Shown here: in pieces, positions 18,756-64,000 of the stretch
Layout: each line of letters begins with the position of its first letter
Numbering within the stretch: position 1 is the stretch's first letter
DNA from: a virus
Strand: one strand, 5' to 3'
DNA: 64,000 nt
Virus record (IMG/VR): IMGVR_UViG_3300020214_000005
Span: 1 to 64,000 of that record
The notes under the pieces: generated by a model
The model's database searches: none
What the model was told of the DNA's origin: nothing
What the model saw: only the letters and a program-made list of their open reading frames with translations
Translations under genes and position numbers: made by a program

Positions 18756-18772
18756 ACGACCCGGTGGGTCGT
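18756..18772 (+). repeat. GGT-loop hairpin, copy 1
   Basis: ACGACCC-GGT-GGGTCGT is a perfect 7-base-pair hairpin, preceded by GTTCGT and followed by CCGCC. Copy 2 is at 19796-19812 (same stem); copy 3 at 20165-20183 has a different stem. Confidence 0.75.
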
Positions 18773-19178: not shown

Positions 19179-19225
19179 CATCGCCGAGACCGCAGGTCTC
19201 CGATGCGAGGCGTGTCCTGCGCCGG
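19179..19225 (+). repeat. GAGACC hairpin, copy 2
   Basis: The inner stem GAGACC/GGTCTC is unchanged. The outer stem is GCATC/GATGC instead of CACTG/CAGTG: both sides changed and pairing was kept. Confidence 0.7.
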
Positions 19226-19331
19226 TTCCCGCCTGCGTGCTGCCGAACGTGCGACGAGACGCCGAGGAACTCGGCGACCGAGGAGAGCGAAGTACGCAGG
19301 ATGGGCGAGATCGAGCGGAACGAGCGAGCCT

Positions 19332-19361
19332 GGGCGCACCCAACCGCCCACGGGTGCGCCC
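19332..19361 (+). repeat. AACCGCCCAC-loop hairpin, copy 1
   Basis: GGGCGCACCC and GGGTGCGCCC pair perfectly (10 bp) around the loop AACCGCCCAC. Confidence 0.8.
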
Positions 19362-19714
19362 GCTATGCGGTGCTCGTTGCGAGACGATGCGTGAACGAAT
19401 GACGAGGGCTCAATGCCCGAAGTCGTTCGTATTTCGTTTAACCGCCCCACGCGAGTCAAGTATGACGCACCGCCCCGGAGCGAAGCGACGGGACTAGCGA
19501 GCGAGCGGAGTAGCGGAGAAAGCGAAGCGTCGGAGCGACGGGCGAGCGAGCCACCTCGCGAGCGGAGTAGCGGAGAAAGCGGAGCGTCGGAGCAACGGGC
19601 GAGCGAGCAACCGAGAGAGCCAGTGCGGGCTGGGACGAGCACGGAGCAAGCGGAGGAGAGATTCCGGAGCGTTTCGTGCGGAATGCGAGTCCGTGGAGCA
19701 CGGGCGAGCGAGGC

Positions 19715-19748
19715 GCCCTTCCGACCAACCGCCCACGGTCGGAAGGGC
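19715..19748 (+). repeat. AACCGCCCAC-loop hairpin, copy 2
   Basis: GCCCTTCCGACC and GGTCGGAAGGGC pair perfectly (12 bp) around the same loop AACCGCCCAC. It is followed about 48 bases later by GGT-loop hairpin copy 2. Confidence 0.8.
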
Positions 19749-20066
19749 ACCGGCGCTCGTCGGACGCAGGTACGGCGAGCGGGAAGGGCGTTCGTACGAC
19801 CCGGTGGGTCGTCCGCCATTTACGACGAGCGAGGGCGTACGAGCGGAGCGGTATGCGGAGCCGGGGGCGGAGCAAACGGGGCGACGAGCGGAGCCTGCGG
19901 AGCGTCGGAAGCAACGTAGTAGGCAAGAGCGAGTCGGCAGGCCCACGGAATGACACGCAGTGAGCGGGAGCGACGTAGCGAGTGGAGTTGCGGAGGAGGC
20001 GCGAGCCACGGAGCAACGCAACGGCGGAGAAAGCGGAGCCACGGAGTGTTGGGGGCAGTGGGCCGC

Positions 20067-20102
20067 GCCCGGTCCGACCAACCGCCCACGGTCGGATCGG
20101 GC
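20067..20102 (+). repeat. AACCGCCCAC-loop hairpin, copy 3
   Basis: GCCCGGTCCGACC and GGTCGGATCGGGC pair over 13 positions (one G-U) around the same loop AACCGCCCAC. It is followed about 60 bases later by GGT-loop hairpin copy 3, the same order as copy 2. Confidence 0.8.
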
Positions 20103-20164
20103 CCTGCGCCCGCCGGGCGTAGACGGAGCGGAGCAAGGCACGGCGGGCGTGATGGGGGTTCGTC

Positions 20165-20183
20165 CGCAATCCGGTGGATTGCG
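20165..20183 (+). repeat. GGT-loop hairpin, copy 3
   Basis: CGCAATCC-GGT-GGATTGCG is a perfect 8-base-pair hairpin in the place held by ACGACCC-GGT-GGGTCGT in the other copies. Confidence 0.75.
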
Positions 20184-20884
20184 TTCCGACACCCGGAGCG
20201 GAGCGAACGGGACTGATTACCGACGGAATCGGGAAAGCCGTGGAGACCGAGCACCGCGAGGGCTCCGACGGTCTTCGAGGGAATTAGCGGTGTCTCGACC
20301 GCCGCTGGCGTAGCCCTGGCGAAGCCGAGGCACGAGAGACATTGCCGTATGGCTGAAAGATTACGCGATGCCGCAGGCGTTCACGGAAAGGCGGGCCCCG
20401 CGCCGGTCTTTAGCCATAAGGGCAAAGCGCGACGAGCCCGACGCAGTCGTGGCGAGCCGAGGAGTTCCGGGGCCGATGACGGCGGGACTCTGGTGTTGGT
20501 GCTTGGCGAACTCGGTGAGTCGCGGCTCTGCCGTGATCGGGGGTGCGCGTGGCTGAGCGTCGGTTCCGACGCAGCGAGCGCGCCTCGGTCACCGCGATCG
20601 TCTCCGGCGCTTAGGAGTAGCGAGAGGGGGACGAGGACGAGCTTGTCGAGGAACGAGACCCATTGAGCGGCATCCTAAGGGCAAATCGGCATCGGCGCGA
20701 AGCCGAGTCGGGACGAGGCGAGAAGGCGTGCGGATTTAGGAAAGTGAGCACGGCGCAAGGCGTTGCGAAAGATCGCGGCGAAGGACATTGATCCCGGTGC
20801 GACGGCACGCGGGGCGCCGATCGGGCGGGGCTCTTGACCTACCGCCGTGGTTCAGGGCACCCGAGGCGGCTCGCGGCGGCGAGC

Positions 20885-22395
20885 GGAACGTAGCGCGACG
20901 TCAGGGTGAACGCAAGCGAACCCTGTTCGAGTCTCACCACGCCAAGCCTGCGCGGGCGTTGGTGAAGCGAAGTGCAGCGTTTTGGCGGAAGTCGCGAGAA
21001 CGGATATCGTTCGAGTCGGCGACAAACGACGCAGACGATGCGTGCCCTGGCACGCACAGGCTTTGCCGATCGTCGGAGCGATGTGAGCGCCACGAAGCGG
21101 TCGCGAACCGAGGGAACGTGGGGCGAACCACGGCGGGGCTCTTGACCTACCGCTGGGATTCGAGAAGCACGCGTTGCCCTTGCGCAGCAGGCTACAGCGG
21201 GCGGGGTCCGAGGGAATCCGCGGCGGCGAGCGGAACGTAGCGTGACGTCAGGGTGAACGGAAGCGAACCATGCGAACATCGTAAGCGCAGCGCGCAACGT
21301 TCGAGTCTCACCACGCCAAGCCTGCGTAGGCGTTGGTGAAGCGGAGTGCAGCGTTTTGCCGGTGCCGGCAAACGACGTGGACGAATAGGAAAGGCAGTCG
21401 CGCGGACGAGCATCGCGAGGCGTGTGCGACAGGCGGTCCCTTCGCCAGTGCCGCCCCTATCGTCAGAGCGGGATGAGTGCGGCGAAGTCGTCACAAACCG
21501 AGGACTCTGAGGGCGAATCCCAGCGGGGCTCCTGAGTGCGGGGATTTTCGAGCGTTCTGGCGGACGAGGAGAAAGAACCAGCGCCTGACGAAGTCGTGCG
21601 CTGGGGCTTAGCCGCAGGCGCGCGGTGCTTTAGCGGAGCGCAGCGCAGCGGGCTATAGCGTCCGGCCGCCAGAGCGCAGGGCGTGGAGCAAGACTCCCGG
21701 AGACGTGGCGACCCCGGGCTCCCTCGCAGAGGGGCTTCAGCGGGGCGCCCGTCGACGGGACTGCCGAGTTCAGGCAGACCCGATCGTCCGGTAGCGATCG
21801 TAAATCGACAAGAGAGAGAAGCAAGAAAAACTTTGAAGTTACGGTCAGAACGAGGGTGGACACGGGACCGCGAAGTCGCTTGGCGAAGCAAGTCGGACTT
21901 CGTCGACTTGAGGAGTCAGCGACTGCGGGACCGGGGATCGCCCGAGAGCGTCGGAGACCGACCGTAACTTCAAAATTTTTTTGCGTAGCGAACGGTCGAT
22001 GACGAGGTCGTGGCGAAGCTTTCGACCAGCGTGCGAGCACGGCGCCAGCCGTTGCGAGAGGACGATCGGGTCGGGGCAAGACGCCGCGTGAGTAGTTTCC
22101 GAGCGGAATGTAGCGTGACGCCAGGGTGAACGGAGCGAACCCTGCGAACATCGTAAGCGCAGCGCACGATGTTCAGAGTCTCGCCACGACAAGCCTGCGC
22201 GGGCGTTGGCGAAGCGAAGTGCAGTGAGTGGTGCCCGCCGGAGACTGCGCGGGACTCAAGGACGCCGCGTGAGTAGTTTCCGACCGGGACGTAGCGTGAC
22301 GCCAGGGTGAACGGAGCGAACCCTGCTTTGAGTCTCGCCACGCCAAGCTTGCGCGGGCGTTGGCGAAGCGGAGTGGGAGGAGGGGTGCCCGCCGG
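20885..22395 (+). repeat. GTAGCGTGACG / CACCACGCCAA repeat family
   Basis: Four units at about 20885-20988, 21231-21361, 22103-22250 and 22282-22395. Each has GTAGCGYGACGYCAGGGTGA, a CAGGGT/ACCCTG hairpin (the distal strand is altered to ACCATG in the second unit), then GAGTCTCRCCACGMCAAGC and GGCGTTGGYGAAGCG. The last two parts pair: CACCA-CGCC with GGCG-T-TGGTG in units 1-2, CGCCA with TGGCG in units 3-4. Units 3 and 4 share the prefix GACGCCGCGTGAGTAGTTTC. Confidence 0.75.
21826..21980 (+). repeat. long-range inverted repeat 1
   Basis: TTTGAAGTTACGGTC (21832-21846) pairs with GACCGTAACTTCAAA (21960-21974), 15 of 15. After one mismatch AAAAA/TTTTT extends the stem. The enclosed segment begins with GAGGGTGGACACGGGACCGC. 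Confidence 0.8.
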
Positions 22396-22751
22396 AGACC
22401 GTGCGGGACTCAAGGACGAGACCGGGAGCCACGAGTTGGTAGCTGTTCTTTCTCCGGTAAGCGGGGGAATCGACGGTTTGCGCAGCAAACTTGAGAGGCG
22501 GAGTCTGCGTCTGGGGAAAGGCCGTGCTGTACCCGAACGACGCCGAGTCGTGGCGAGGCTAGGAGGGATCGCAAAGGAAGCGTGCGAGCAGGGCGCAAGG
22601 CCTTGCGAGAGGCGAGGGGCGACCGGTGCCCGACCCCGCGTGGTGGGCATGCGAGGCGCCGACTGGGCGGGACTCTTGAGCTTCGTCCGAGCAGACCCAA
22701 CCGGCCGCTAGTGGTCCTAATCGAAGGCGACCGGAGGAGAAAGGCTTTGAG

Positions 22752-23124
22752 CTTTTTTTTCGTTAACCGGGCGAGCGAGGGTGGACGCGGGACCGCGGAG
22801 CGCAACGAGGAACGGCGCACTCGGCGGGGGCGCCGTTCGAGAGATCGAGTATCGCTGACTGCCAGTTGCGTTGCGGTTTCTTCGGAGGAGTCCGGATGTG
22901 ACCGGCGGAGGGAGGTTCGGTCGCGGAAAGTCCACGGTAATGGAGCGACCTGAATTCCCGTAGCCGTGAGTCATCTGGATCGTAGACGGCTTGCCGCGAC
23001 GCACGAAGAATGCGCAGAGCATAGGCAGAAGGCGTTGCGCGACGCAGTCGTCGCGAAACGAGATCGGTTGAGCGGAGCGGGACCGGGGATCGCCAGTGCG
23101 AACGGCCGGTTAACGAAAAAAAAG
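22752..23124 (+). repeat. long-range inverted repeat 2
   Basis: CTTTTTTTTCGTTAACCGG (22752-22770) and CCGGTTAACGAAAAAAAAG (23106-23124) are perfectly complementary over 19 positions, 335 bases apart. The enclosed segment begins GCGAGCGAGGGTGGACGCGG, the same start as in long-range repeat 1, although the stems share no sequence. Confidence 0.85.
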
Positions 23125-26100
23125 GTCGAAGTTTCTACGTAGTGAGCTTCGATTAGCGAGGTCGAAGCCGGAGCTTTCGACCAGCGTGCGAGCAGGGCGC
23201 AAGCCTTTGCGAGAGGCCGGTTGGGTCGGGACGAGACCCCGCGCGGGGGATCTCTCAGCCGCGACCGGGCGGGACTCCGCAACGGAACCGACCGTTACGA
23301 GCGGGCAGCGTCAGAACCGGCCAAAGCGGGGGAATCTCTTCGTCCTTACGCGGGCATTGTTCGGGAGGTGGCGCTGTGCGAGCGACAGCGTAAGGACGAC
23401 GAGAGGCGGCAGGTCCGCGTGGACGGTTGTGTCCCTATGGCGAGGTGAGGATACGAAGCCGGGGCGCAGTGACGAGCCGAGATTGGGGAAGCGTGCGAGC
23501 AGGGCGCCAGCCCTTGCGAGAGGCGAGTGCACGGGAGGTGCCAGATCCCCGCGTGGACGGTACGCGAGGCGCCGACTGGGCGGGACTCCGCAACGAGACT
23601 CGGCGAGAGAGCAGGTAGCGACGATTAGATGAAATCTAGCGAGCCGGGAGGACCGGACGGAGTCGGGTCAACCGGAAGTTTGCCGAGGCCGAGACCAGGG
23701 CGAGGCCGTAAGACGAGCGAAGCGAAGCGAGCGAGCGGCGGGAAACTGACGGTTGCGAGGCCAGATTTGATCTAATAGGGACGAACCCAACGCCACGAAG
23801 CAAGCCGGGGCGAGCGAGTGGGGTAGGTGCAGTCAGCGTGTCGAGCAGGCCGCTAGGCGTTGCGAGAGGCGAGCGAGACGAGTGCCTGTCCCCGCGTGGT
23901 GGGCATGCGAGGCGCCGACTGGGCGGGACTGCGGACCTGCCCTGCTCTGCCCTTCGTCACGAGAGTGGTCCGGGTTCTAGTGAGCGGAGCGAGCTAGTAC
24001 CCACGGGACTACCGAGTGACGGGAGTCGTTCGTTCGAAGAAAAGGGCGACATCAAGGGGTAAGCGGCAGAAGACGTTCGTCTTCAAACGCTTCACCGGGA
24101 TGTGCTCCTAGTATTCGGCGACGACGATGTCGGGACTCGTGAGCGTGGCTAGCCACCGGACGACGAAGTCGAAGCCGTGTCGTTTCTGCAGCCACACGAA
24201 GTGCCGTGCGTGGAGCGCCGCGGCGCGACCCAGCACGGGGACGAACCAAGGGTGAGGACACGGATGCGAAGAGCAGCCCGCACAGCCCGAAGTGCCGTAG
24301 CGAAGCCTGGCATGTCGGCGCCGCTTAGGCAGCCGGCAGGCTGTGAGCGGACCGCGCCCATCTTTGGGCGAGGCGGATCTCTTGGGCGCTCCCGAGACGT
24401 AGCGAGCGGAGGGCAGAAGAGCTCCGGCGTCTGGCGGTAGTGAAACGGGCTCCCAGCAATCCGCACGAGGGTGGCGTCTTGAAGAAACGCTCAGGCGAGA
24501 CGAGACGAACGCACCGAATGAAACCTGATGAGCGACGGGCCCCCGCAACCGCGGCTGCCTTGGCAGCGGATTTCGTTGTCGCGAGCGACGACGATAACGG
24601 ATTACCTGTCCCCACGGAGCGCCGGGGCGAAGCTTCGGCTGCCGGGAGGGATCGGGCGGGGGTTTGTTCGCCGAATGCGCGAAGCGCCTTGAGCGAACCC
24701 CGTCGTCGGCGCGTCTCGTAGGCGCGACCCAGAAACTCCGAGCGGTCAGGAAGACCGTCGCGTTTCAAGGACACGAACGCCAATGAGCGGTATCCGAACG
24801 TCGCGAGGGCAAGTTCGGGGACGCGCCCGAAGTCCTTCGGACGAGTGGCGCGAGCGGGGCGTTCGGGGTGAGGCGCGACGCCGGTCAGGCGTTCGCGGTG
24901 AGTGGATCCGACGGTGGCGGTCTCGCGGGTGGTGGCATTTCCCGGAGCGGAGCGACGGGACCGGGGAACGCAGCGAGCTTCTCTCGAGCGGGGCGACGCA
25001 GGAGCCGTTGCGAGGGGCGAGCGGGCACCAGCGAGCAGATCGAGTGAGCGGGGGACGCGGCTGTAGACGAGTTGGTAGTAGGAGCGCTCTGAGCGTCGGG
25101 CGAGAGGATCACGGGAGGTGCGGTAGACCAGACCGGCCGTGCTGAACCCGGAGGGTTCGCAAAGAAGGTCGCCAGTCGTGCGAGGAGCGAGTGCGCCAAA
25201 CGAGTCGTGCAACGAATCGTCGGCGCCCTGAGCCCGAGAGCCACCGGAGGGATCGTCCGAGCCGACTTGCCCCGCAGGGGCGCGAGGATGGCGAACACTA
25301 CCCGTAGTCACAGCATCACGGCCGAGCGTGAGCGAGGGCGTTGATGAGCGTTAGCCACGAGGGTGAGGAGGAGACTATAACCCGCTCTGGTCCGCGCCGC
25401 AGGCGAGACCAGAAGGGCGCAAGGAACGAAGCGATTGACGACGCAACGCGAGCGCAGCGAGCGCGGGCTCGAGGGGCGACATTTGCGCAGTCGCAGCGAG
25501 AGCGACGAGTCCTATGCGTCGAGGAGCGAAGCGAAGCCGCTTGCGGCGAGCGAGGCGTGCAGCCGCAAGCCGGAGGCGAGGCAGTCGCTGAGCCGAGCGA
25601 GACGTAGCAGAGCGAATGAGATCTGCGAGCGGGCTGGACTCCAGAGTGACTCTGGTGTTCGACCTGCCCTTGACCTACCGGGGGCGCGAGAATCGCGGAG
25701 CGCGGTGGGCGGAGCAACGATTCGAGGCGAGCGGATGCGTCTATCGATTGCCCGAATTGACTTCGCAAAAGACGGCAACCAACCAGAGTCCACGAGAGGG
25801 CCGGAAGCGGCCACGGAGCTGACGAACCTGAGGGGACGAGGGTCTGCCGCCAAGGCCCTGGCCGCGGGTGGCTTGGGCGGGCGTCGTTGCGAGTCAACCA
25901 GGCAAAAGATAGCGCTGCGCAATGCTCGTCATTGCGTCGGCAAGCAGGAGCGTCCGTCGGGACTCAGGAACCGCAGAGTCGCGGCGAAGCCGTGGCCGAG
26001 GGAACGTGGAGCTCCGTGCGTGCAGGCGTCGTGCAGCGACGCCGTGTGAGGCACGAACGCACGCATCGGAGCGGAACATGCACGAGGGCACCACGAACGG

Positions 26101-26932
26101 CTGCGACCGAAGATGGGGAGTGGAGCGTTGTTAGGGACGAGCAGGGCGAGGAGCGAACATGCGTAACGTCGCATCTTCGGGGAATCGTTTCTGGGACGAC
26201 GCCGAGCCGGGGCGAGGCTAGGCGCAGACGAGATTCAGCGGGGCGAGCAGGCCGCGAGGCATTGCGAGAGTGAATGGCGACGGACTTCAATCCCCGCGCG
26301 ACGGGCATGCGAGGCTGTGACTGGGCGGGGCTCTTGAGCACGGGCAGCGAGGGGCGAGTCGATAACGGGCCGCTGCTGCGGTCGCGAGGCGGCTGCAACG
26401 CGTCGCCGAAGTGAGCGCCGCCGCGTCGAATCCCGTTTCTTGACGAAGCCGAGTCGGGACGAGGCGAGGAAAGAATGGGGATTCAGTGTGAGTGCAGGCC
26501 GAGGGGCGAAGCGACGAGGTCTTGCACTAGGCGAGCCCGGAGCGGGGTCTGGCGCCGCGTTGGGGGCGTGCGGGGCGGGGACCGAGCGGGACAGCGGAGC
26601 GGAACGAAGCCTTGTGACCCCGCGCTGGGGGGGCTCAAGGCGGCAGTCGAACGGTCTACGGACCGCCTGCTTTGCGCTACCGGCCGACGAAGCCCGAACG
26701 GCGCAATCGGGTGACTGGTAGCCAAACGACGGGCACGGTAGTCGTGCGGTCTACTCAGTCACTCCGACGCAGAGCGAGGGGCGCAGCCGTCCGCAGGATG
26801 CGAGGACAGCCCGGTCACGCAAAGCCGGGGGAAGAGGACGTCAAGACGGCACGGATTTGACGAGTGAGACGGTGGAGCGGGACGGAGCGGGACTGAAGTT
26901 CTGGAGTCGAGGGAACGGAGCGTCGAGGTAGT

Positions 26933-27064
26933 TGCCGTCGTAGCGGTGGACCGAAGGGCTCACGCTATGCGAAGCACGACGGCAGTTACCCCGGTGACTG
27001 CGTATCCGTAAAGAACGAGCAGGACGCAGTCATTGCTCGTAGGCCCCCGACGGCCGGTCGTCGG
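26933..27064 (+). repeat. three consecutive hairpins
   Basis: TGCCGTCGT/ACGACGGCA (26933-26941 with 26976-26984), GACTGCGT/ACGCAGTC (26996-27003 with 27024-27031) and CCGACG/CGTCGG (27047-27052 with 27059-27064) follow each other without overlap. Confidence 0.65.
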
Positions 27065-27481
27065 ATTGAGCCGTCGCAGCGACGCGTTGCGAGAAGGACC
27101 CCGTCCGTCGCAGCAACTGGCCGAGACTCCGAGTCGGAGAACTTCAGTCGGCGTTGGTGTTGCCCTGCCCTGGTGTTGCCCTGCCCTGGTGTTGCCCTTG
27201 GTCTACCGACCGTCTCGGACGCAGTCGGAGGCCTAGCCGCCGGGAACGAGGACCGAGCGGTCGGGACTGAGCAACGACGCTCGTTACTCCGAGGAGCGAT
27301 GTAGAGAACGGCGAAAACATTGCAGCGTATAAGCGAGGACGAGGCGGCACGACGAAGTGAGTGACGGATCGCTGAGCGCCAGCGGTCAATGTTTATCGAG
27401 GCGAGGCTCGGCGCCGATGCCGGACCGATTCTCTACAAAAGCGACGAGGGGAATGGCGTCGTGGTCGCCCGTGCTGTGAGT

Positions 27482-28150
27482 CGGGACCGGGGACCGCGGA
27501 GCGGAACGAAGAACGGCGCCATCGGTGGGGGCGTCGGTCGAGAGTTACCGAACGGTTTGCGATGAAGTGTGTAGCGTCATTTCCTGACGACGATATCCGA
27601 GGAGGTGCTGCGGCCGAAGGCTGCACTCGCTAGGGACGTTCCGTTGTGGAGCACGACCACGGTAGTGCTCGCAACTGGAACGGCCCGTGGTGAGACCGAC
27701 GAGGAGCGGAGCCGGCTTGCCGGGAGGAGGAAGGAAAAGTGCGCAACATTCATAAGCAACGCTCGCACCAATCGGGTGTCGAGCAGGGAGGTCGGTGGAG
27801 CGGAGCGGGACCGGGGATCACCCGAGAGTGTTGTGGACCGCGGAACGGAACGAAGAACGGCGCCATCGGTGGGGCGTCGTTCGAGAGACCAAGCGATTCG
27901 CGTCAGGAGCATGGAAGCGTGCTATGACGACGAAGTCCGAGGAGGTGACATGGGAGGGATGCTCCGTCACGGGCTGGCGGCCACGGTAGCCAGCGTGACT
28001 GGAGTCAGCCCGTGAATGTGACCGACGAGGAGCGGAGCCGGCTCGCCGCGAGGAGGGAATAGCCTGCTGTAATGCCATGTAAGCGAAGATTGCGCCGTTG
28101 AGGCGTCGAGCAGCGAGGTCGGTGGAGAGGAGCGGGACTGTCGTGCGCAG
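27482..28150 (+). repeat. tandem duplication of a ~330-base unit
   Basis: Unit 1 (27482-27808) and unit 2 (27809-28150) share, in order: GGGACCGGGGA, ACCGCGGARCGGAACGAAG, AACGGCGCCATCGGTGGGG, GACGACGA-W-RTCCGAGGAGG, ACCGACGAGGAGCGGAGCC and GAGGTCGGTGGAG. ACCGAC near the start of the last part can pair with GTCGGT at its end. A partial copy of the GGGACCGCGGAGCG...CGGCGC part is at 22789. Confidence 0.7.
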
Positions 28151-30508
28151 GGAGCGAGGACGAGACGCTAGCCGACTTTCGTCGACTAGCAGGGGAAATG
28201 GCGACAGGTAATCGCTCAGTTTTCTCCGAACCGGGGCTTCTTTGCGACCAGGTTACCTGTCGTTATTGGCGTAGTCTGTCTGTCGACGAGAGGGCCGTGC
28301 TGGGGAGCGACGGAGCGAGCCGGGGCGAGCGAGTGAGCGTCCGCTAAGGCAGCGTTGTGAGCAGGGCGACGCAGGAGCCCTTGCGAAAGGCGAGGACGAG
28401 CGGGGTGGGTCGCCGCGTGAACGGTAAGCGGGCCTGACGGGGCGCGGGACTCTAGACCTGTTCTCGGTTTGCGATCCAGGTTCTAGGGACCGGAGGGAGC
28501 TAGTACGTGGGAGCGGAATAATTTCGGGACTGTAGACCGGGGAGACCGGCTTTCTTCACCGAACCACTGGCAGGTACTTTACTCAGGGAGCGATCGACAA
28601 GTCAAATGTGACAAAGAAAGCGTGTAGTCAATCTGTAACTCGTTTGGCGAGAATGTCGCGCTGGACTGCAGAGCGGCACGCGGCGCAGGACAAGCGGTCG
28701 TTCGAGCAAACGGTGATGATGGACGAAACTGCGTTCGTAGGAACGTTTTACTTTCGGGAGCGGAACTGGTAAAGATACCGAAAGTGGTGAGGTGACGGAG
28801 ACGGTCGGACTTTGGCTCGTCCGGGCAACCGGTACGGGACTCAGGAACAAGGCGGGCGCGTAGCGCCGACGCCCGCAGGGCGTCGATAAGTCGGTGCTGG
28901 GCCCGAGCCTTTGCGCAAGATGGGGAAGCGGAAGCGACCCCCATCGAGCGAGGGAACCGTCAAAGGGGACCGACGGAGCGAAGCGTGGTTTTTGCGAGGC
29001 CCACCACGATGAGGTCTATACGAATCGTTGTGGGATGAGCAACCGTCGGCGAGTGGAGCCGTAGCGAGGCGCCCGGCCGCATTCGTGGAACGAGGAGGAC
29101 GCACGGATGTGCGGACTCGGAGCGACGCAGAATGCGAAATGGCGGGCGTCGACGAGTGCGTGGCGGAGCGCTCTAAGGCGCGCAGCGAAGAGCGAGCAGC
29201 GAAGCGTCGGGCGAGCGACCCAGCAACGAGGAGATTGGCGTCGCGGAGAGGATTTACGAAGCACCGACCCGCCGGGGAGTTGGGTGAGGACCGGGCACGG
29301 GACTGGTGAGTTGGTGCTGGTGCTGGTGTTACCGCGGAGTCGTGTGAATGGTCGTTCGCAGGAAAACCGGACGAGCGTTACGAGCCGAGAGCGGAGCGTG
29401 TTCGCGCAGCGAACCGAGGCGTGGTAGCGAGGAGGTGTTATCCGGAGGACGCCGTTACACGACGAAGCGGGGCTTGAGAGCAGACCGCGTGTTATCGGCG
29501 TGGGTCGTTCGGGGGAGCGACGGTGTTTGGGTGTACGGAACAACCGGACGAGATCGTTGCGACGGCGGACGGCAGAGCGTTCGACGGAAAGCGTCGCTTT
29601 AGCGAGCGGCGGCGCGGGACCCTTCGGGTCTTAGCCGTTCCCAAAAGGACGCGGTCGCCTAGCACGGCGGGCGCAGCCGGAAATGACGAGGAGGATATTT
29701 CCGGACCTGCGGAGCGAACCATGGTGTAGCGGGCACCGGCACGGGGCACGCGGAACTACATGGTGAGCGTTGAGCCGGAGATCGGAGCCGCTCGCGGCGA
29801 GGACGGTTTTTCGTACTGCTTACAACACCGTAAAGCGCAGGGCCGGAGGACTCTGCGCCAAGCGAGAGCCGCACGTAGCGCGAACCGACGAGTTTGCAAC
29901 GAGGAGGCGAGGATGGCCGCAGGCTAACCGCAGAGCCCGCAGCGGAGCGGAGGGTTGGAAACGCGGAGAGAGGCGGCCGGCAACGAGACCCGCCCGCGGA
30001 GCGATCGAGCCTAAACGAGAGAGCGACGCGTAGCCGCCTGCGGAGAGCGAGCCGGGTCGGCAGGAAGCCGTGAGGGCGGGGTCCCTACGGATTCCCTTTG
30101 TCCGACGGTAGGTGAGCGAGGGTCGAGAGAGAACGGCGAGGGAGCCCCCATACCCGGGGAGGCGACCGAGTTGCCCACGGAGACACAGCGGGCGGTCGCC
30201 CGTGATGGGGGTCGGGACTGGGGAGCGCGCGTCGGCACCGAGCAGGTCAGGGGACGCGCGGAGCGCGGAACCGGACGATGAAGGGGCCGCGCGCGCGTCA
30301 TAATGTTTGCGTCTGGTTCAGCCCGATCGAAGTCGTCGGAGACGAGCGGAGCGGGGACGCAGTGAGTGGCGAGCCCGAGCGCGAGCCTGCGAGCAATCCG
30401 AGGGCGAGTGGCACCCGTCTAAACAACGGGTCCACTGAACCGACGCAAACCCCGAGCGCGTCCGCCGAAGAACTGGAGGAGCCGTCGCCAGCCGACGGCG
30501 ACCCAAGT

Positions 30509-30536
30509 AACTCGGCGAAGGGGTTCGCCGAGTTTT
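30509..30536 (+). terminator. intrinsic terminator near the end of the non-coding region
   Basis: AACTCGGCGAA, loop GGGG, TTCGCCGAGTT: a perfect 11-base-pair stem running into TTTT. It lies about 400 bases before the first gene of the right block and is oriented to end + strand transcription from the non-coding region. Confidence 0.75.
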
Positions 30537-30919
30537 CGAGGCGGCGGGCGAGGGGGGACCGCGAGCAGTCGGCGACGAGAAATCGGGACGAAGTCCTCGG
30601 TGTCTTTCTCGGCGCCGCTCAGGCGAGCGGGACCGGGGAATGCCCTTCCCCGAGGAGCAGCCGTTCGGGTAGTGGAACGGTTTGACGCGGACCACCGGTC
30701 CAGTCAAGACCCGGCGGCGGTCGCCCGTCGGAACCGCCGATCGGTTCCGCGCTTGGGTCCGGGTCGTCTCGTCGGCGGAGGCTCTCGAACGCCGCTTCAC
30801 GGACGACCTGGACTGGAGCGGCCCTTCGCCGCGAACCGGAGCCGTTCTGGAGTCCAGCGTGGGAATCCACCCCGGGGATTGGCGTTGTCGCGCGGCGTAG
30901 CCCGTCCGTGAGTTACGGG

Positions 30920-51440: not shown

Positions 51441-51820
51441 GGGGCTGACAGGTTTCGACGATCGGTCTGTCCGGAGAGGATGCGACCCGAGTTGCTCAGA
51501 CTCGTTAAACAGGGCAAAAAAATAACTGCCAACAAGCAGTTCGCTCTCGCCGCCTAATCGGGCGACAGGGGAGCAACCGTGAGCCGCAAGGTCGCACGGG
51601 GCCGATCCACCGCAGCCCGGCAACAGAAGCGGGGATGACGACGGGAAAGGCCGTTGACCTCGGGGAACGAAAGCCCGACGACCTCTCGGAAAGACGAGAC
51701 GCGGCCTGGGCGACTAGGCGGCCGACCCGTCGGCGGCGGAGCGACAACGTCACAACGGGGATGGTCGTAGCAGTCTCCTCGGTATCCGCTCGGACGGGGG
51801 TTCGATTCCCCCCAGCTCCA
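51441..51820 (+). ncRNA. ssrA: tmRNA
   Basis: The 5' end GGGGCTGACAGGTTTCGACG and 3' end GGGGGTTCGATTCCCCCCAG fit the tRNA-like domain; CCA is not encoded. The tag frame 51513-51557 reads GKKITANKQFALAA, stop. The ALAA end is the usual proteolysis signal. The resume codon is Gly (GGC) as read. It sits directly after the helicase gene. Confidence 0.95.
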
Positions 51821-51842
51821 CTCTCGGGACCGCCCGGTGCCG

Positions 51843-55884: not shown

Positions 55885-56282
55885 TTGTGTTTGAATTCCA
55901 CCCAGGTCTTGTCGCCGACGCCATAGTACTCCCGTGCGTAACCGGACTGGATGATGTCCTTGTTGAGGCATGCCGTCGTCGGATCGTCGATCTCGTCGGA
56001 CGAGTAGATATTGGCGAGGATTCGCCCGTACTTGTCGTTCTTGTCCGGGATCGTGTTGACGAAAACCCAGTCATGATTGGTCAGCCAGTCCAAAGTAAAC
56101 GACTTCGCCTTCAATCCGAGCTCTTTTTCCTTGAGGTCTTTTGTCCGCGACTCTGGTGCGTTGACACCGAACAAGCGGACGCGGATCTTATGGTGGATAT
56201 TGAAACCAAGGTCGATCATCAGGTCCAGGGTGTCGCCATCCACGACGTTGAGCACCTTGGCTCCGTACCAGAACCTTTGCAT
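55881..56282 (-). CDS. SNase-family (thermonuclease-like) nuclease
   Basis: A 133-residue nuclease: VLNVVDGDTLDL, KIRVRLFGVNAPESR (catalytic Arg and Glu), and DKYGRILANI (second Arg). No signal peptide, so it probably acts inside the cell. It starts in the TGATG overlap with the virion gene before it. Confidence 0.85.
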   Translation of the reverse strand: MQRFWYGAKVLNVVDGDTLDLMIDLGFNIHHKIRVRLFGVNAPESRTKDLKEKELGLKAKSFTLDWLTNHDWVFVNTIPDKNDKYGRILANIYSSDEIDDPTTACLNKDIIQSGYAREYYGVGDKTWVEFKHK

Positions 56283-58075
56283 CAGTTACTCCCGAAATTT
56301 CTTCCGGGACCCCTTTGGCGACCTCGGTTCGGATTATTCGGCGTCCTAGTTATCGGTTGCATACGAGACGGAGGATTCTTTGGCACGTTGCGACCCGGAA
56401 TTTCGCGAGGATTTACGGTCGCCGGTCTTGGTCGTGGGTTGTCGTCGGTCGGCATTCTTCTCGGGTAAGTGGGCTCTTGTCGCGGTCTCATTGGTCTCAT
56501 TGGTCTCCGTGGGGCGGACGGCCCTCGTTCAAACCCTCGTCCGCCCCTCCCGCCATCCCCCCTGCGGGGCGGGTTCGGGTACCTGTCGGCGGGTCTCGGG
56601 TTGCCCGTCGCAGCCGATGGTCCTGGCGGACCGGACGGCCCTGGTTCAAACCCTCGTCCGCCCCTCCCGCCATCCCCCCTGCGGGGCGGGTTCGGGTACC
56701 TGTCAGCCGGTCTCGGGTTGCGCGTCGCCGGGGAAGGTCCCTCGGGCGTCTGACCGGGCGGGTACTTTTTCGGCGGGGGGTTGGGGTACCTGTCGGCCGG
56801 CTTGGGATTTTTGGTCGCCGCGGATGGGGGTTCTGGCTTCTGTCCCGGCGGATATTTCTTCTGCGGGTCAGGGTACCTGTCGGCCGGCTTGGGATTGGTG
56901 GTCGCCGGAGAACGGACCCTCCCTCTTTCGATTCGATTCTCCTCCTCGAGTCCTGCCATGTACGTCATCTTGTCGTACGCAGCGCGAGCCTTCGCGCGGG
57001 CGTCCCTCTCCTTCTGCGAGCGGTCCTGCACCTTCGGGTTGCGCTTGATGCCCTGTCTCCTTAGTTCCGAGCGGACGAACTTCCTGCGATCCATTTCGTA
57101 CTTGTTGTTGCTCTGCCTCTTGTACGGGGCGCGCTGCTCCTGCGGGGTCCCCTCGAAAATAATTCCGTCCATGTCGTGGTCGATCGCCTCGTCGGCCGGT
57201 CCCATGGAGCCCGAGCCGATCGCGGCGCCGAGAGCCTTGACCGACGGGCGGACGGCGACGGACTTCGTCTCGGTGATCGGGCCTCCCGTCACCCACGCGC
57301 GGCAGGTCCTCTTCGACGCGCACTTGAAGTCGAACGCCTCGCAGTAGCCGAGCCCGCCGGCCGCGTCGATCGCGTCCCACTCGTCCTTCCGCGTGGGACC
57401 GGTCACGCCCTTCTGTATGCACGATTTCATCTCGGGCGTGACGATGAACATCGAGCAGTTGCCGCACATCTGCTTGCGGGCCTGGTCTGGGGCGACAGCC
57501 CACTCCGTGGCGAGCTTCTTGTAGAAGGCGTCGTTGGGCTCGTCGGGGTTGAGGGGCCCGTACGTGGCCGTCTTGATGGCCTTCGTCCTGTTCTTCAGGT
57601 TGGTGGCGATGTCTCTCGTGGCTTTCGGGCAGTTCCCGGAATTGGCGGGTTCCTCCTTGATCTTCATCCTGCGCTTCCCGACGTTGGTGGGCATGACGGG
57701 CATCTGAGCGGCCGGGTCGTAGACGCCCTTCACCACGCCGTCTGGGATCACGGCGAACCTGCACTTGCCGCCGTCCTCGACCTTCTGGGCGATTATCTTG
57801 CAGACCCCGTTCCCCGCGTACAGGGCGCAGTTTGCGCACTTGACGCCGATGTGCGCGACGACGTTGTCCTTGGCCGGCTCGTAGCCCGCCCATATCCCGG
57901 TCTCGTCCTCGTTGAACTTGCCGTACTTCTTGGCGATGGCGATGAGGGCATCGGCGAGCTCCTGCTCCTCGGCGGCTAGCTTGGGCTTGACCTGCGCCGG
58001 CTTTTCTGGCTCGTCCTGAACGACCATTACGATCTCGCCTGAAACAAGCCTGCCGAGAATGTCGTTGATGTCCAA
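56282..58075 (-). CDS. Cys-rich virion-associated protein with PADRYPNP repeats
   Basis: A protein of about 597 residues. The N-terminal half carries two Cys clusters, CANCALYAGNGVCKI and CGNCSMFIVTPEMKSC with GYCEAFDFKCASKRTCRAW, like the Cys-rich proteins near phage portals and prohead cores. The C-terminal 200 residues are Pro/Arg/Gly-rich with about five PADRYPNP units, encoded by a ~100-base direct repeat (56520-56720). TTG 58075 is preferred because GGGAG lies 5 bases before it. Confidence 0.65.
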   Translation of the reverse strand: MDINDILGRLVSGEIVMVVQDEPEKPAQVKPKLAAEEQELADALIAIAKKYGKFNEDETGIWAGYEPAKDNVVAHIGVKCANCALYAGNGVCKIIAQKVEDGGKCRFAVIPDGVVKGVYDPAAQMPVMPTNVGKRRMKIKEEPANSGNCPKATRDIATNLKNRTKAIKTATYGPLNPDEPNDAFYKKLATEWAVAPDQARKQMCGNCSMFIVTPEMKSCIQKGVTGPTRKDEWDAIDAAGGLGYCEAFDFKCASKRTCRAWVTGGPITETKSVAVRPSVKALGAAIGSGSMGPADEAIDHDMDGIIFEGTPQEQRAPYKRQSNNKYEMDRRKFVRSELRRQGIKRNPKVQDRSQKERDARAKARAAYDKMTYMAGLEEENRIERGRVRSPATTNPKPADRYPDPQKKYPPGQKPEPPSAATKNPKPADRYPNPPPKKYPPGQTPEGPSPATRNPRPADRYPNPPRRGDGGRGGRGFEPGPSGPPGPSAATGNPRPADRYPNPPRRGDGGRGGRGFERGPSAPRRPMRPMRPRQEPTYPRRMPTDDNPRPRPATVNPREIPGRNVPKNPPSRMQPITRTPNNPNRGRQRGPGRNFGSN

Positions 58076-58156
58076 GAAATCTCCCAAAAGATGGTAGTTA
58101 GATTATTGCACGTCTACGATGAAATAAACATAACCCATGTTCGCCGTGAAAGGCAA

Positions 58157-58224: not shown

Positions 58225-59559
58225 TCAGGCTGGTGCGCTGTTGAAGGTAACCTTCACGAAGGCTTCCGGCCTCTTGACCGCCAGCGCCAGGCGCTGCTCG
58301 GCCAGGATGACGATCGCGTTGCGGACGAAGAAGTCCGAGTGCTGTTCGCTGACTCGGATGCTTGCCTGCTCGCGGTCGTATAGCTGGGCGCCGGTTCCGA
58401 ACGCACCGACGAGGGCGGTGCCCTCGGCGATTGCCGGTGACTCGACAACCGAGGTCCTCCACAGCCTCGGCTGACCGCCGAGAGCCACGGAAACCGCGAC
58501 TAGGTACTGACCGTTGTCATCTTTCGAGAGTTCGATCTTCTCCCAGTCGCTCGGGTGCATGACCACGCCGGTCGGCTCGTAGTAGGCAAGGAACGACAGG
58601 GTCAGGGCGCGACGAATCGCGTCTCCCCTATTGTCCCCGGTCTGACCAGACGACCAGTTGTAGGTCTGGATTCCCGCCGTCTGAAGGACGCCCCTCAGGT
58701 TCTCGCCCGACCCGCTGCCGTTGAGGATTTGCGAGTCCTCAAGGAGACGCAAACCGTACATGAGCTCGTTGTCGATGATGCTGCGGAGCTGCGGTTCGTC
58801 GGCCAGCACGTTGCGGTGCGCGGCTTCCCAGTGGGCAAGCGTGCGGACCGAAGCGGCTTCGGCGACGAACTGGAGGCTCGACTGCGGCTTGGCAGCGAAC
58901 ACGTCCGGGTTCGGAGTCGTGTCTCGCTGTGCCACCGCAGCAGCGGCGTTTGTTGCCGTCGTTCCCGGCGTTGTGTAGCCGAGGTGACGGAAGTACTCGA
59001 TCACGGCCGCAGTGGTCGTGCGCGACGGGAACAGGTCCCTGACGCGCTTCGTCCTCGTCGGCTGGGTGACCATCGGGTCGCGCTGCACGGTTCCGAAGTT
59101 CGCCGTCGCACCGTTGGCAAGGTTGCCCGTCGGCATCGCCGAGAACACGTCCTTGACACCGTACTCGGTGAGCGAACCGGTGTACTGCCATGGTGAGGCC
59201 ATGTTGGCACCGTTGCGTCCCCCGTTGAGGGCCTTGAACTCCGGTGAGTCGACGAACTGTTGTCCGATCGACCTCGGGGCTTGCTGAACTGGTGCGATGA
59301 CCGCTGCTTGGGCGGCTATCGATGCATCGGCCGGGGATGAACCCCAGTCCTTCACCTGGTTGAGCGACTCGAGACCCTCAATGAGTCCCTTGATCTCGCG
59401 GATGTCGGACATGTTCTTGTCGAAGGCCGACTTCTGCTCGGTCGTAACGACGACCGTTCCGTTGTCAACGCGGAATGAGTCCGCGATCTCTTTGTTTTGC
59501 TGCATCTTTTCGCGGAGTGCTGACTGCAACTCGCGGAGCCTGCTCGTGTCTTCCGACAT
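58225..59559 (-). CDS. HK97-type major capsid protein
   Basis: A 444-residue protein. The N-terminal ~100 residues are a coiled-coil scaffold (delta) domain (REKMQQNKEIADSF, IREIKGLIEGLESL), followed by an HK97-like core with LTEYGVKDVFSAMPTG, AAVIEYFRHLGYTTPG, DEPQLRSIIDNELM and GVVMHPSDWEKIEL. It builds the capsid shell. AGGAGG before ATG 59559. The delta domain is normally cut off by a prohead protease, which is not seen in the window. Confidence 0.9.
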   Translation of the reverse strand: MSEDTSRLRELQSALREKMQQNKEIADSFRVDNGTVVVTTEQKSAFDKNMSDIREIKGLIEGLESLNQVKDWGSSPADASIAAQAAVIAPVQQAPRSIGQQFVDSPEFKALNGGRNGANMASPWQYTGSLTEYGVKDVFSAMPTGNLANGATANFGTVQRDPMVTQPTRTKRVRDLFPSRTTTAAVIEYFRHLGYTTPGTTATNAAAAVAQRDTTPNPDVFAAKPQSSLQFVAEAASVRTLAHWEAAHRNVLADEPQLRSIIDNELMYGLRLLEDSQILNGSGSGENLRGVLQTAGIQTYNWSSGQTGDNRGDAIRRALTLSFLAYYEPTGVVMHPSDWEKIELSKDDNGQYLVAVSVALGGQPRLWRTSVVESPAIAEGTALVGAFGTGAQLYDREQASIRVSEQHSDFFVRNAIVILAEQRLALAVKRPEAFVKVTFNSAPA

Positions 59560-59684: not shown

Positions 59685-59891
59685 TTATGTGGCTATGTCT
59701 ATGCCGTAACCGTGGCTACGCATGTCTGCGTAGATGTCCTTCAATTTGTCAAGCATTTTGCGATTTTCTGGGGTGTCGGCAAGTCCGTAATGGGACAGGG
59801 GTTGGTCCAGACACGCCGCGAGTTGCAGCGCCTCAAAGGCGTTCAGGCCTGCGCCGGCCCTCGGTCGATCGGAAATCCTGTCGTCGCTCAT
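59685..59891 (-). CDS. small hypothetical protein before the capsid gene
   Basis: A 68-residue helical product with LNAFEALQLAACLDQPLSHY and MLDKLKDIYADMRSHGYG. It lies between the polyprotein and the capsid gene, so possibly a virion assembly factor. Confidence 0.6.
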   Translation of the reverse strand: MSDDRISDRPRAGAGLNAFEALQLAACLDQPLSHYGLADTPENRKMLDKLKDIYADMRSHGYGIDIAT

Positions 59892-59893
59892 CC

Positions 59894-62800
59894 CTACCTC
59901 CCAGAGAACGGAATAGTTATCGTTTGCGTCTTGCGCACCTCAATTTTACTGCCATCGGGGGCTGTCCTGTCCTTGTACAAGTATCTTAACAGGTAGGGGT
60001 GCTTTATCTGGAGGATCTGCGGCGCACCCAGCTGCCCGAGGAGCATCTGTCCGACGAGGAGGGGTTTCGTCGGGTCCTTCTCCGAGTCCCAGATGTACAA
60101 CTCGTCGAACAATTGCCTCTCAATGATGATGGGAAGTATCTGCTGGAGGTTCCACTGGATCTGTTCAACTATCCCTTCCGGCACGTGACGCCCGAACTGA
60201 TCTTCCCTGTTCAGCACCCTTTTTTGGATGACTGGCAACGGTGCGAAGAAGTAGTGGCCGACGATGTTGTATCCCTTCTTGCGCCAGTCAACCAGGTCCT
60301 GGAACCCGTCGTTGAACTGTCCGCTGGTGTCGTACACGAGGTCAAGCCCCTCCTCCGTGGCGGCCCTCGCCATCACGGCTGCCACCTGCCGCGACTCTCG
60401 GTGCACCAGGCCGGACGCGCTCTCCAGCCTGCGCGCGTACCAGAGCCTCGTCTCGGGCATCATTATTTTTGCGTCGTCCGGATCCGCCACGATGGCGCTG
60501 TCGTAGTTCGGTATGCCCGCCAAACCCATGTTCCTCGCCGTGGACTTCCCGGTCCCTGATCCTCCCCCGAGTATGTAGGCGGTCGGTCTCTGCTGGTCGT
60601 TGGGAATGTCGCCCCTCCTCGCCCGCTCGAGACTCAACTCCACGTACGGCCTCCATAACTGCTCCACCCGGTCCTTGTCGCCCCAGGCCGCAAACAGGTC
60701 GTCCCCGCCCCTCGAGGTGCCCACCCTGTAGAACCCTGCGGTGTCGCTGCCCTTTTCGAGGTGACTCGGCGGCATCTTGCTTTGCACCGACAGGAGACCG
60801 AGCTCGCGTGGCAGCGAATCATCTATGGGTTTGTCCGACATGCCCGCCTCGGCGCCCGGTCCGAATCTCCAGGTGGATGCGGCGACCCTGTTGCCCCACG
60901 GCATCAACGGGTGGGGCATCTTGTTCGATCCAAGGAACAGCTTCCTCCCCGTGGCCCTGCGGATGTCGTTTATCTGGGCGATCATCTTCTGGTTCCTCAC
61001 CCTCGCCGCCCGCGCAAGCATCCCGAGTCTTCTGTTGATCGACAGACTCAGGTCGCCGTACGGATCCGACGACGGATCGTTCTGCAGGTTTGCGACCGCC
61101 CTTCGTATCCACTCGGCATGGCCGAAGGCGAGCCTGTGCTGGCCCGCGGCTATCTCGGAGAGAGGAACCCAGCGAGCTCCCGACGCATCCGAGGCGGCGA
61201 CGAGTTGCGTGTCCCAGGGGACGACGAACATTCCGGCGCCGACCCTCACCCCGTTGACGAACCTCGGGTCCCAGTCTGGGGCTTCCATGGCGCCGAGGTA
61301 ATCCGCCTGCAGGGCGTTCTCAAGGGAAACCCCCACCTCTTCGAAGGTCTCGCGGGTCGCGGTCGTCATGAGGTCCTCGCCATCGTCCTTCAATCCGCCG
61401 ACGAGCGCCAAGGCATTCCTGTACGGGCCGCTCTTGCGCGTGATCATCGCTATCTCCGCCGTGCGAAGATCCAAGTCCCTCATCCTTATCATCACGGAGT
61501 CGGCCCCCTCGACGTAGATCGCGTCCTTGTTGAAGGACCAATTGCTGGTGCTCCAGTTGATGTCGTCTTCGGTGTAGTCAAGGTTGTGAAAGATGTTGAA
61601 CGGCGATCCCATGGATATGTTGTCGGCGACCTTTCGCAGTTCCGATTCGCTCATATCGACGTCCCCGTAGACCCCCTCGAAGTAACGCCTCTGATCGACT
61701 TCTTCGGAGCGAGCGAAGTTCCCGACGATGGGCTCGATCATGTCGGCGAAGTTCCTCGCCATCCCCGCCTCGGCGTCGTCGGTCTCGTCCGGCATGTGCT
61801 CGTCGTTGTCGAAGTACAGGCGCATGCTTGACTTCAGTTTCGTGAGTCGCGTTTGTTCCGAGTTGTCGGTCACCATCGCGTCCGCCCTGTCCATGGCGTG
61901 CCTTATCGCCCCCAGGAGGTCCGCCGGTTCCTGGCCGTTGTCACCGAAAATGAGACGAGAGTTCGTTGGGCGCACGGCGTCCGCCGAGAACGGGGATTCC
62001 CCTCCCCTGAAGTCCACGGGGGAGATTTCATTGCTCGCCGCCATCAGTGAGTAGATGTCCATTAGGCGCTCGACCTCGTCGACCAGCTCCCCGTCGGTGG
62101 CCGTCCCCACGGCGACCGATATGCGTCGGTCCGAGTTAAACCACATCCCGTTCGCGAGGAGTTTGTTTCGCTTGAGGTCGTCACTTCTGTCCGTAGAGTT
62201 TGTTCTGGCGCGACTTGGCGACATTCCCGCCTCCGGACTCAACGGCATTCCGCTCAAAACCCTTGCCGTAGCAATTGTCGCCTCGATGACGTCCGGGCTT
62301 ATGTTCTTTGATCGAAGCGCCTGTTTCACGCCGTCGTCGTTTTCGTTGCCCCTGAGCCTGTCGTTGAGAATCGCCAGGATCAGGTCGCCGAGGTCAATGA
62401 ATTCGTTGCCTCTTTGCGAGGAGGCCTTGAGTGCGCCGATCAGCGCCCGGTGTGCGGCCTTCGTCCATTTGGTGGGTTTCGGGGAGGGACCGTCCTTCGG
62501 GGTGGTCACGCCTTGGAGGGCGTTGATCATGTTCTCTACCGAGATGTTCAGTCTTCTCAGGGCCGTCAAGTACGTACCAGTTTCGGGGTGGGTCATCACA
62601 TATCTCCAGGCCCCCAACAGGAGGTGTCCTGCGTTTACATCGGGCGACCCCGACTTCGCCGCGTCCTCGTAGGCTTCCACGATTGAGAAAACTGTGTCGT
62701 TGGTGAACCGGGCCATCACCATTCTGGTCAGTGCGGACATGCCCGCCTCCGCGCCGGTTCCTCTGTCGCCTCTGTCGTAGGTCAGCTCGGGGAATCCGTT

Positions 62801-64000
62801 GGCGTCCAGCCATTCGTTGAAGGTTAAGAGCTTCGCGAATCTCTCGTCGTCGCTTAGCAGCGAGTCCTTGATCGGGTCTATCATCTCCCTCTTGTACCTC
62901 GGCAGCAAAATCCTCCGTTTGCGCGCCCGCTCGGTCGCAAGTATGAAGGGCTCCATCTCCCTGACGGCCTCGCCGAGCGTCTTGACCGACCCGTAGATGC
63001 CGCTCCGTATGTGCTGCTCGAAAAGGGTGCCCAAAGTATCCTGGGCCTCGGCGTAGTACCTGTTGTACCGGGTTAGGAATTCGCTCTGCTCGGGGGTGAG
63101 CTGACGAACATCGTCGGCGCCGTCGGCACCCGTGTGCCGTGCGATAATTCCCAAGAAAGTGACCCAACCGTCCTGGTCGTCGTGAATCTTTTCTACGACA
63201 GTCTGGCCGAATTCCAAATCACCGAACAGGGAATGGACGTGCGCGCGGGCGACCTCCTCCGCCAGCTTAAGGTGCGTCTCGTCGTTGATGGATCCGCTCT
63301 CTCGCAGGGTGTTCAGGAGTTGCTCTATGACATACATTTGTGTCTGGAAATCGGTCTGTCGCATCCCAATCCCAACCCTCATAGTGTCCAAGCCATTCTT
63401 GAACGCGGCGACCTGCCTGTATCCGATTTCCATGTTGGATCGGTGGGTCTGCAGGATGCCCTTGATCAGCGGTATCATGAAATTGTTTCTAAAATCGTTA
63501 GACTCAGGCCCGTCGGGTCTGCTCAGGATTGTGTGGGCCAAAGTCAGGTGCGGTTTTCCCCCGAACATTGTGATCACTTCGAGCGGTGACGTGATAAACA
63601 TTTCTTTCATCGCATTGATTGACTCCGAGAAACTCTTGCCCGTGACGGGGTAGATGTCGTCCATTCGGTCCAGGTCCAGCCACGGGAAGATATTCTTCAG
63701 CTGACGAAGGACGGCGTCTTTCGTCACCGTTCCCGCTGGGATCCCTTTGATGATGGGCCCGATCCACTCGTCGAAGCGGTCCAGTTCGGCGACTGGGTAG
63801 CCCATTCCCAGAAGCCGTCCAAAAGCCCTTTTGAGCAACTGGCTCGGTTTCTCCTCGACGAGCGCGGCATCCTCGAAGGCAATCATCGACGAAACGTAGT
63901 CCGCGAACTCCTCGGGGTGCATCTCCAGTATCTGATCGTCCCCGAGTTCACCGTAGGCGGATGCGGTCTCCCACCAGTACTTCCCCGGGGTCTCGTCTAT
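59894..64000 (-). CDS. polyprotein: Clp-N, Nudix and Zeta-like kinase modules (partial)
   Basis: At least 1342 residues from the ATG at 63922, but the frame stays open to the window edge (...KYWWETASAYGELGDDQILE), so the true start is beyond 64000. Numbered from 63922, an xEAGM motif recurs at E392, E564, E718 and E1025. Between them lie a double Clp N-terminal domain (393-564, HLLLGAWRYV and DLILAILNDR), an unassigned 154-residue part, a Nudix domain (GLKDDGEDLMTTATRETFEE) and a Zeta-toxin-like kinase (AYILGGGSGTGKST, NYDSAIVADPDD, VYDTSGQF). Probably packaged and cut during capsid maturation (inference). Confidence 0.75.
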   Translation of the reverse strand: MDETPGKYWWETASAYGELGDDQILEMHPEEFADYVSSMIAFEDAALVEEKPSQLLKRAFGRLLGMGYPVAELDRFDEWIGPIIKGIPAGTVTKDAVLRQLKNIFPWLDLDRMDDIYPVTGKSFSESINAMKEMFITSPLEVITMFGGKPHLTLAHTILSRPDGPESNDFRNNFMIPLIKGILQTHRSNMEIGYRQVAAFKNGLDTMRVGIGMRQTDFQTQMYVIEQLLNTLRESGSINDETHLKLAEEVARAHVHSLFGDLEFGQTVVEKIHDDQDGWVTFLGIIARHTGADGADDVRQLTPEQSEFLTRYNRYYAEAQDTLGTLFEQHIRSGIYGSVKTLGEAVREMEPFILATERARKRRILLPRYKREMIDPIKDSLLSDDERFAKLLTFNEWLDANGFPELTYDRGDRGTGAEAGMSALTRMVMARFTNDTVFSIVEAYEDAAKSGSPDVNAGHLLLGAWRYVMTHPETGTYLTALRRLNISVENMINALQGVTTPKDGPSPKPTKWTKAAHRALIGALKASSQRGNEFIDLGDLILAILNDRLRGNENDDGVKQALRSKNISPDVIEATIATARVLSGMPLSPEAGMSPSRARTNSTDRSDDLKRNKLLANGMWFNSDRRISVAVGTATDGELVDEVERLMDIYSLMAASNEISPVDFRGGESPFSADAVRPTNSRLIFGDNGQEPADLLGAIRHAMDRADAMVTDNSEQTRLTKLKSSMRLYFDNDEHMPDETDDAEAGMARNFADMIEPIVGNFARSEEVDQRRYFEGVYGDVDMSESELRKVADNISMGSPFNIFHNLDYTEDDINWSTSNWSFNKDAIYVEGADSVMIRMRDLDLRTAEIAMITRKSGPYRNALALVGGLKDDGEDLMTTATRETFEEVGVSLENALQADYLGAMEAPDWDPRFVNGVRVGAGMFVVPWDTQLVAASDASGARWVPLSEIAAGQHRLAFGHAEWIRRAVANLQNDPSSDPYGDLSLSINRRLGMLARAARVRNQKMIAQINDIRRATGRKLFLGSNKMPHPLMPWGNRVAASTWRFGPGAEAGMSDKPIDDSLPRELGLLSVQSKMPPSHLEKGSDTAGFYRVGTSRGGDDLFAAWGDKDRVEQLWRPYVELSLERARRGDIPNDQQRPTAYILGGGSGTGKSTARNMGLAGIPNYDSAIVADPDDAKIMMPETRLWYARRLESASGLVHRESRQVAAVMARAATEEGLDLVYDTSGQFNDGFQDLVDWRKKGYNIVGHYFFAPLPVIQKRVLNREDQFGRHVPEGIVEQIQWNLQQILPIIIERQLFDELYIWDSEKDPTKPLLVGQMLLGQLGAPQILQIKHPYLLRYLYKDRTAPDGSKIEVRKTQTITIPFSGR

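Follow-up and report, generated by a model that had tools for sequence, protein, structure and literature searches.

A border tag repeated between unrelated domains of giant phage polyproteins and a candidate prohead protease

In the window analyzed here, the 64,000-nucleotide stretch formed by positions 1 to 64,000 of IMG/VR virus record IMGVR_UViG_3300020214_000005, an open frame beside the capsid gene contains the peptide EAGM again and again at the borders of unrelated domains, which raises the question of what this recurrent peptide is for. The initial annotation regarded the region (59894-64000) as a polyprotein of probable ejected effectors that is plausibly cut after Glu by a T4-type prohead protease. 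The underlying observation is correct and is larger in extent than first described. The whole record comprises 97,935 bases and has an open frame of 4,975 codons with 10 EAGM sites (cargo polyprotein A; 59894-74821 of the record, minus strand), of which just the C-terminal 1,368 codons fall within the window. The ATG at 63922, from which residues were originally counted, is not the gene start, the frame being open on to 74,821. We consider it probable, on the evidence of the sequences, that the head cargo of this phage is made as polyproteins that are processed by the prohead protease, and that the released domains are packaged and ejected.

The EAGM sites and the modules between them

All four EAGM peptides of the window were located at the residues named previously, numbered from the 63922 ATG: GAEAGMS at E392 (62738..62749; residue 4025 of polyprotein A), SPEAGMS at E564 (62222..62233; residue 4197), DAEAGMA at E718 (61760..61771; residue 4351), and a second GAEAGMS at E1025 (60839..60850; residue 4658). 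Each lies on the minus strand and has orthologous sites in relatives. When the 1,368-residue part was shuffled 2,000 times, EAGM occurred 0.02 times on average and at most twice, against four times in the real sequence; about 0.08 copies are expected in the whole 4,975-codon frame, where 10 were counted. Across the record, 15 in-frame copies are distributed over three open reading frames (ORFs) of one strand, with 0.21 expected for the large ORFs. The two ORFs other than polyprotein A lie at 81842-83995 (one copy) and 87862-96399 (four copies). The lone copy in 81842-83995 may be a chance occurrence, judging from the Val that follows it and from the good conservation of the protein. The remaining match of the DNA pattern in the record, at 51626 on the plus strand, falls inside the tmRNA gene.

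The pieces delimited by these sites, all encoded on the minus strand, are unrelated to each other. The first (62231-62746) contains a ClpC1 N-terminal-domain (NTD)-like module (62258..62713), defined by an AlphaFold2 (AF2) domain (model residues 48-199) and by a Foldseek match to the ClpC1-NTD structure 9din (TM 0.80 on the target). It is followed by a module of unknown function without a family match (61769..62230; residues 4198-4351 of A), by a piece (60848-61768) with a Nudix hydrolase domain (61100..61453; PF00293, E=2.5e-9; phrog_1198), and by a piece (59897-60847) with a Zeta-toxin-like kinase domain (60083..60601; PF06414, E=4e-20; Foldseek matches to zeta/PezT). The names originally given to the pieces, Clp-N, Nudix and Zeta-like kinase, are upheld by the Pfam and Foldseek matches, and domain matches and site mapping bear out the description of unrelated domains strung into a polyprotein, with one tag recurring at their borders. 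EAGM inside folded domains had been named as an observation that would speak against processing; in the AF2 model (seven sequences), all four window sites are coil within low-confidence segments, a test that is only moderately strong because the Clp-like domain and the kinase are well predicted and the Nudix piece poorly.

Comparison with relatives revealed that the tag varies by lineage. In G002, a relative with 61% identity, 28 EAGM copies occur where 0.41 are expected. At orthologous borders, the EAGM of the window phage is replaced by DAGM, NAGM or SAGM in G003, by PTASM in L020 and by GP[IVTS]G[KRA]M in L054, and more distant relatives carry ISGRM, ITGxM, VSGxM, GLTGAM or [RG][LF]SSG. The tags of other lineages likewise exceed chance (ISGxM, 16-18 copies vs. 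0.1; GLSSG, 16 vs. 0.02; R[LF]SSG, 17 vs. 0.4), and a looser test found one of three tag classes in 45 of the 73 relatives with enough upstream sequence. Within each genome the tags agree among themselves, and at the same border they switch by lineage; this genome-wide covariation suggests a trans-acting factor. In the alignment of the giant proteins, column identity is 89% for A, 80% for G and 88% for M, compared with 30-45% in the flanks, and the polar composition of the flanks is by itself indistinguishable from background. Identity of the Glu column is 43%, and of 125 AGM-class sites 60 have Glu. In phages with a nearly identical protease domain, its place at orthologous sites is taken by D, N, S, T, M, Q or V, where A-G-M followed by a small residue is kept.

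The codons of the tag bear on two explanations at the level of nucleic acid. One takes GAGGCNGGNATG as a Shine-Dalgarno sequence plus start codon, each piece being separately initiated inside one open frame. GAGG does stand five bases ahead of ATG in 15 of 15 sites of the record, but the third base of the A and G codons varies, the relative G004 uses the GAA codon in 12 of its 18 Glu sites, GAGG is missing from the TASM (e.g. ACCGCATCCATG) and ISGRM sites of equivalent borders, and LSSG sites have neither GAGG nor ATG. Separate initiation is therefore extremely improbable, and the GAA codons of G004 together with the TASM and LSSG codons rule out a ribosome-binding site as the general cause of the tag. 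Judging from these patterns, the tag is under selection as amino acids, not as DNA, synonymous change being free. The same amino-acid-level conservation, and the different peptides that lineages have at one and the same border, make it very unlikely that module shuffling left the tag behind as a DNA-level joining scar or recombination site, even though shuffling does occur at the sites. In the alignments, homology borders coincide with sites far above chance and modules change order there: among 153 internal homology-block ends, 44 fall no more than five residues from a site, compared with 2% at random positions. This count covers the window phage and three close relatives; as the ends are not independent, its nominal P (7e-37) gives no more than an indication. 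Module B1880-2186, for example, precedes B1536-1713 in G002 and follows it here, with the breaks at sites.

A prohead protease fused to the first polyprotein

A capsid protease gene had been predicted to lie beyond the window, and it was located through overlapping contigs. The window record ends short of the protease region, but contig G001 overlaps it (99.96% over 6,921 bases) and contig L128 overlaps G001 (100% over 2,875 bases). In L128, the protease opens a frame of about 4,870 codons that directly follows an ORF in the portal position, runs into G001 and contains 13 candidate sites. This copy, attributed to the window phage via the contig overlaps, aligns throughout with the protease of G002 (Peptidase_S78, E=1e-10; phrog_80, E=2e-26) and shows about 40% identity to proteins annotated as capsid maturation proteases in phage isolates of Gordonia and Brevibacterium. 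HK97-type prohead proteases (PF04586, Peptidase_S78) scored above the cut-off in 13 of 18 records, and in G002, G003 and G004 the domain forms the N-terminus of frames of 5,469, 4,384 and 4,580 codons, respectively, that come after a 740-amino-acid ORF in the portal position. The motifs WGH and EWSIGY are invariant across the relatives with a fused protease; the candidate catalytic His and Ser of the family would lie in them.

Cutting after Glu by a T4-type enzyme, as first proposed, is unsupported. The T4 gp21-family protease (PF03420, Peptidase_S77) had no match in the 18 records, some of which are fragments, and Glu at P1 is not conserved; a gp21-type system was therefore rejected. Moreover, G002 and G003 have nearly identical protease domains (tree distance about 0.03) but not the same residue at the Glu position of their tags, an argument against Glu as the main determinant. 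The bond cut is probably the one after Met, in [AG]-x-M followed by [SAGT], or the one after the preceding A/G. The former would match the AGM and [ILV][ST]GxM logos and parallels the rule for SPN3US gp245, which cuts after A-X-E with Ser preferred next (PMC10052503). A bond after the preceding A/G/S could also accommodate the [LF]SSG class, and a bond after Glu, which would suit only this lineage, is less likely.

The fusion also bears on whether the tags are cut at all. They might instead stay uncut and bind a scaffold or capsid partner as docking motifs or flexible linkers, with the chain intact in the head. A common binding partner would likewise give covariation of the tags within a genome, and the window sites lie in predicted linkers. 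However, the sites part otherwise complete, unrelated and shufflable domains, the same array has the prohead protease fused to it, and chains of about 5,000 residues would need to be packaged and ejected whole; we regard this alternative as unlikely.

Proposed processing and comparison with known systems

The sequences show a conserved tag that covaries within genomes and falls on module borders and, in overlapping contigs, a protease fused to the array; from these we infer cleavage, its enzyme, the bond cut and packaging as follows. A few giant polyproteins would account for most of the head cargo; in close relatives, the five ORFs that separate the portal-position ORF from the major capsid gene encode about 16,000-18,000 residues. 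The short linker tag between modules, in this lineage x-A-G-M-[S/A/G/T], may be recognized by a trans-acting protease, for which the likeliest candidate is the HK97-type Peptidase_S78 with which the first polyprotein begins. This protease could free itself and then cut the other polyproteins in trans inside the prohead during head maturation. The freed domains, namely the ClpC-NTD-like, Nudix and Zeta-like kinase domains, would be ejected with the DNA, plausibly as effectors. Other chains of G002 contain sigma-70 region 4, many helix-turn-helix (HTH) domains and a DNA polymerase exonuclease-like domain; this content suits early take-over functions, and such sigma/HTH and polymerase-exonuclease-like domains would be packaged and ejected in the same way.

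A different set of enzymes is suggested by four HExxH motifs in the cluster (DHELSH, VHEYAH, THEFGH and LHEFFHH), two in the 2,845-amino-acid ORF at 87862-96399, one in 84885-87641 and one in 96617-97933, which point to zincin-like metallopeptidases. If these domains of neighboring ORFs cut the sites instead of the prohead protease, the locus would resemble the polyvalent proteins of phages and conjugative elements, which have 2-15 domains and for which, in the passages of Iyer et al. (2017, PMC5512222) used here, processing by embedded zincins was proposed, the metallopeptidase being the commonest domain. Those passages also describe polyvalent proteins as thought to be packaged and draw the polyprotein analogy, and they make no mention of border tags of the present kind. 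The likeness lies in unrelated enzymatic domains in one chain near head genes, here ClpC-NTD-like, Nudix and Zeta domains in one polypeptide, together with possible zincin motifs; the difference is that here several ORFs have a covarying tag in common and the first of them is fused to a prohead serine protease. We consider cutting by zincins improbable: the HExxH ORFs have no Pfam or PHROG match to a zincin family, the zincins of polyvalent proteins were proposed to act in cis whereas the tags here are common to several ORFs, and the S78 protease is itself the N-terminus of one polyprotein.

Several observations weigh against processing by the prohead protease. The HExxH motifs in other ORFs supply alternative candidate enzymes, and the tag is absent from the alignment of major capsid proteins (MCPs), the expected substrate of a prohead protease. 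No recognizable tag was found in 28 of the 73 relatives, though the view reached only about 10 kb upstream. The tag class tracks the protease phylogeny but the MCP phylogeny too, so that co-evolution is confounded with descent. Among isolates, no fused protease-polyprotein architecture was found, and no record spans 80% of the protease-region query. The AF2 model of the protease with the first sites had a mean predicted local distance difference test (pLDDT) score of 41 and was unusable.

The head proteases of T4 (gp21), phiKZ and SPN3US recognize a short motif and cut many head proteins, ejected ones included (PMC10052503), and the system proposed here would likewise pair a head protease with a short motif in many substrates. 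Their substrates, however, are separate genes that shed N-terminal propeptides with Glu at P1 (PMC10052503), unlike the up to 19 candidate sites in one chain with an [AG]-x-M core found here. Brevibacterium phage Cantare and Gordonia phages Gray and GMA6 have a homologous protease (about 40%) and a homologous capsid protein (43-46%); the enzyme of Cantare and Gray, a protein of 417 to 455 amino acids, is encoded next to the capsid gene, and neither phage showed a repeated tag. Giant ORFs of similar size lie near the portal and capsid genes of Streptomyces phage Gilgamesh (gp48, 4,624 amino acids) and Microbacterium phage KingKamren (gp28, 4,483 amino acids) and were rejected as the same system, as neither has a repeated border tag; the Gilgamesh protease is encoded in a separate 641-amino-acid gene, unlike the fused protease here. 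By eye, Gilgamesh gp52 (L014 27165-29090), beside the capsid gene, appears to be S78 fused to a Nudix-like domain and is perhaps a simple version of a protease-cargo fusion. RNA-virus polyproteins resemble the present chains in their unrelated domains, self-encoded protease and short repeated sites, by analogy and not by homology. In the literature on prohead proteases and polyproteins that was searched, a scope excluding most subscription journals, only Iyer et al. (2017) was directly relevant.

Neighboring genes, other features and significance

The capsid gene lies beside the polyprotein gene, as annotated: the major capsid protein of the HK97 fold family is encoded at 58225-59559 (minus strand; PF05065 Phage_capsid, E=2e-42; MCP alignment), with one 68-amino-acid ORF in between (59685..59891, minus strand). 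In L022, L029, L043 and others, the N-terminal region of the MCP contains QLSSRE or QLTSRE at the likely delta-domain junction. This motif resembles the LSSG tag of some lineages and may be a related site, possibly a capsid cleavage site; it does not track the tags of the genome. Past the capsid gene, a 601-amino-acid gene (56282..58087, minus strand) carries, near 57130-57175, a DxDxDGxxxEGTP element common to the cargo ORFs (AIDHDMDGIIFEGTP). In the form DADxDGLVxEGxPxINxGRGxPDPTP (DxDxDGxVxEG), the element stands near the N-terminus of most cargo ORFs at 59897-97933 of the record and at related loci, upstream of the first modules, and in AGM lineages it is followed by [DN]FAxAAM. As a speculation, this possibly calcium-loop-like element could direct packaging and then be cut off by the protease, by analogy with the T4 capsid-targeting sequence.

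The phage encodes a tmRNA (51441-51821) with the tag ANKQFALAA, a tRNA-Leu at 37975 and a tRNA-Arg at 48751. Positions 1-4100 of the window consist of about 4 kb of GC-rich degenerate short tandem repeats (TGCGTCGTCG-like and GCCCT). About 13.8 kb at 16800-30600 lacks codon periodicity, with GC equal at the three codon positions, and contains many dispersed degenerate direct repeats of 30-137 nt, which together are unusual for a phage. The phage appears to be of a freshwater type; its relatives in the genome collection are contigs of metagenome-assembled genomes from four different groups, and no host was therefore assigned. Isolate relatives of the Zeta piece or of a 707-amino-acid ORF were absent from the phage collection searched.

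In its widest form, the proposal is of a large, mostly metagenomic family of tailed phages with RNA-virus-like giant polyproteins that a prohead protease contained in one of them cuts in trans, the protease and dozens of sites having co-diverged into AGM-, [ILV][ST]GxM- and [LF]SSG-type specificities while modules were freely shuffled among chains; this could equally prove right or wrong. If true, the capsid protease of tailed phages would process multi-ORF polyprotein cargo, a strategy for which RNA viruses and retroviruses are otherwise the best-known examples. The tag would then allow the cargo to be read directly in uncultured phages, by splitting a chain at it into a list of candidate effectors, and the lineages would provide a natural series of protease and cut-site pairs with differing specificities.
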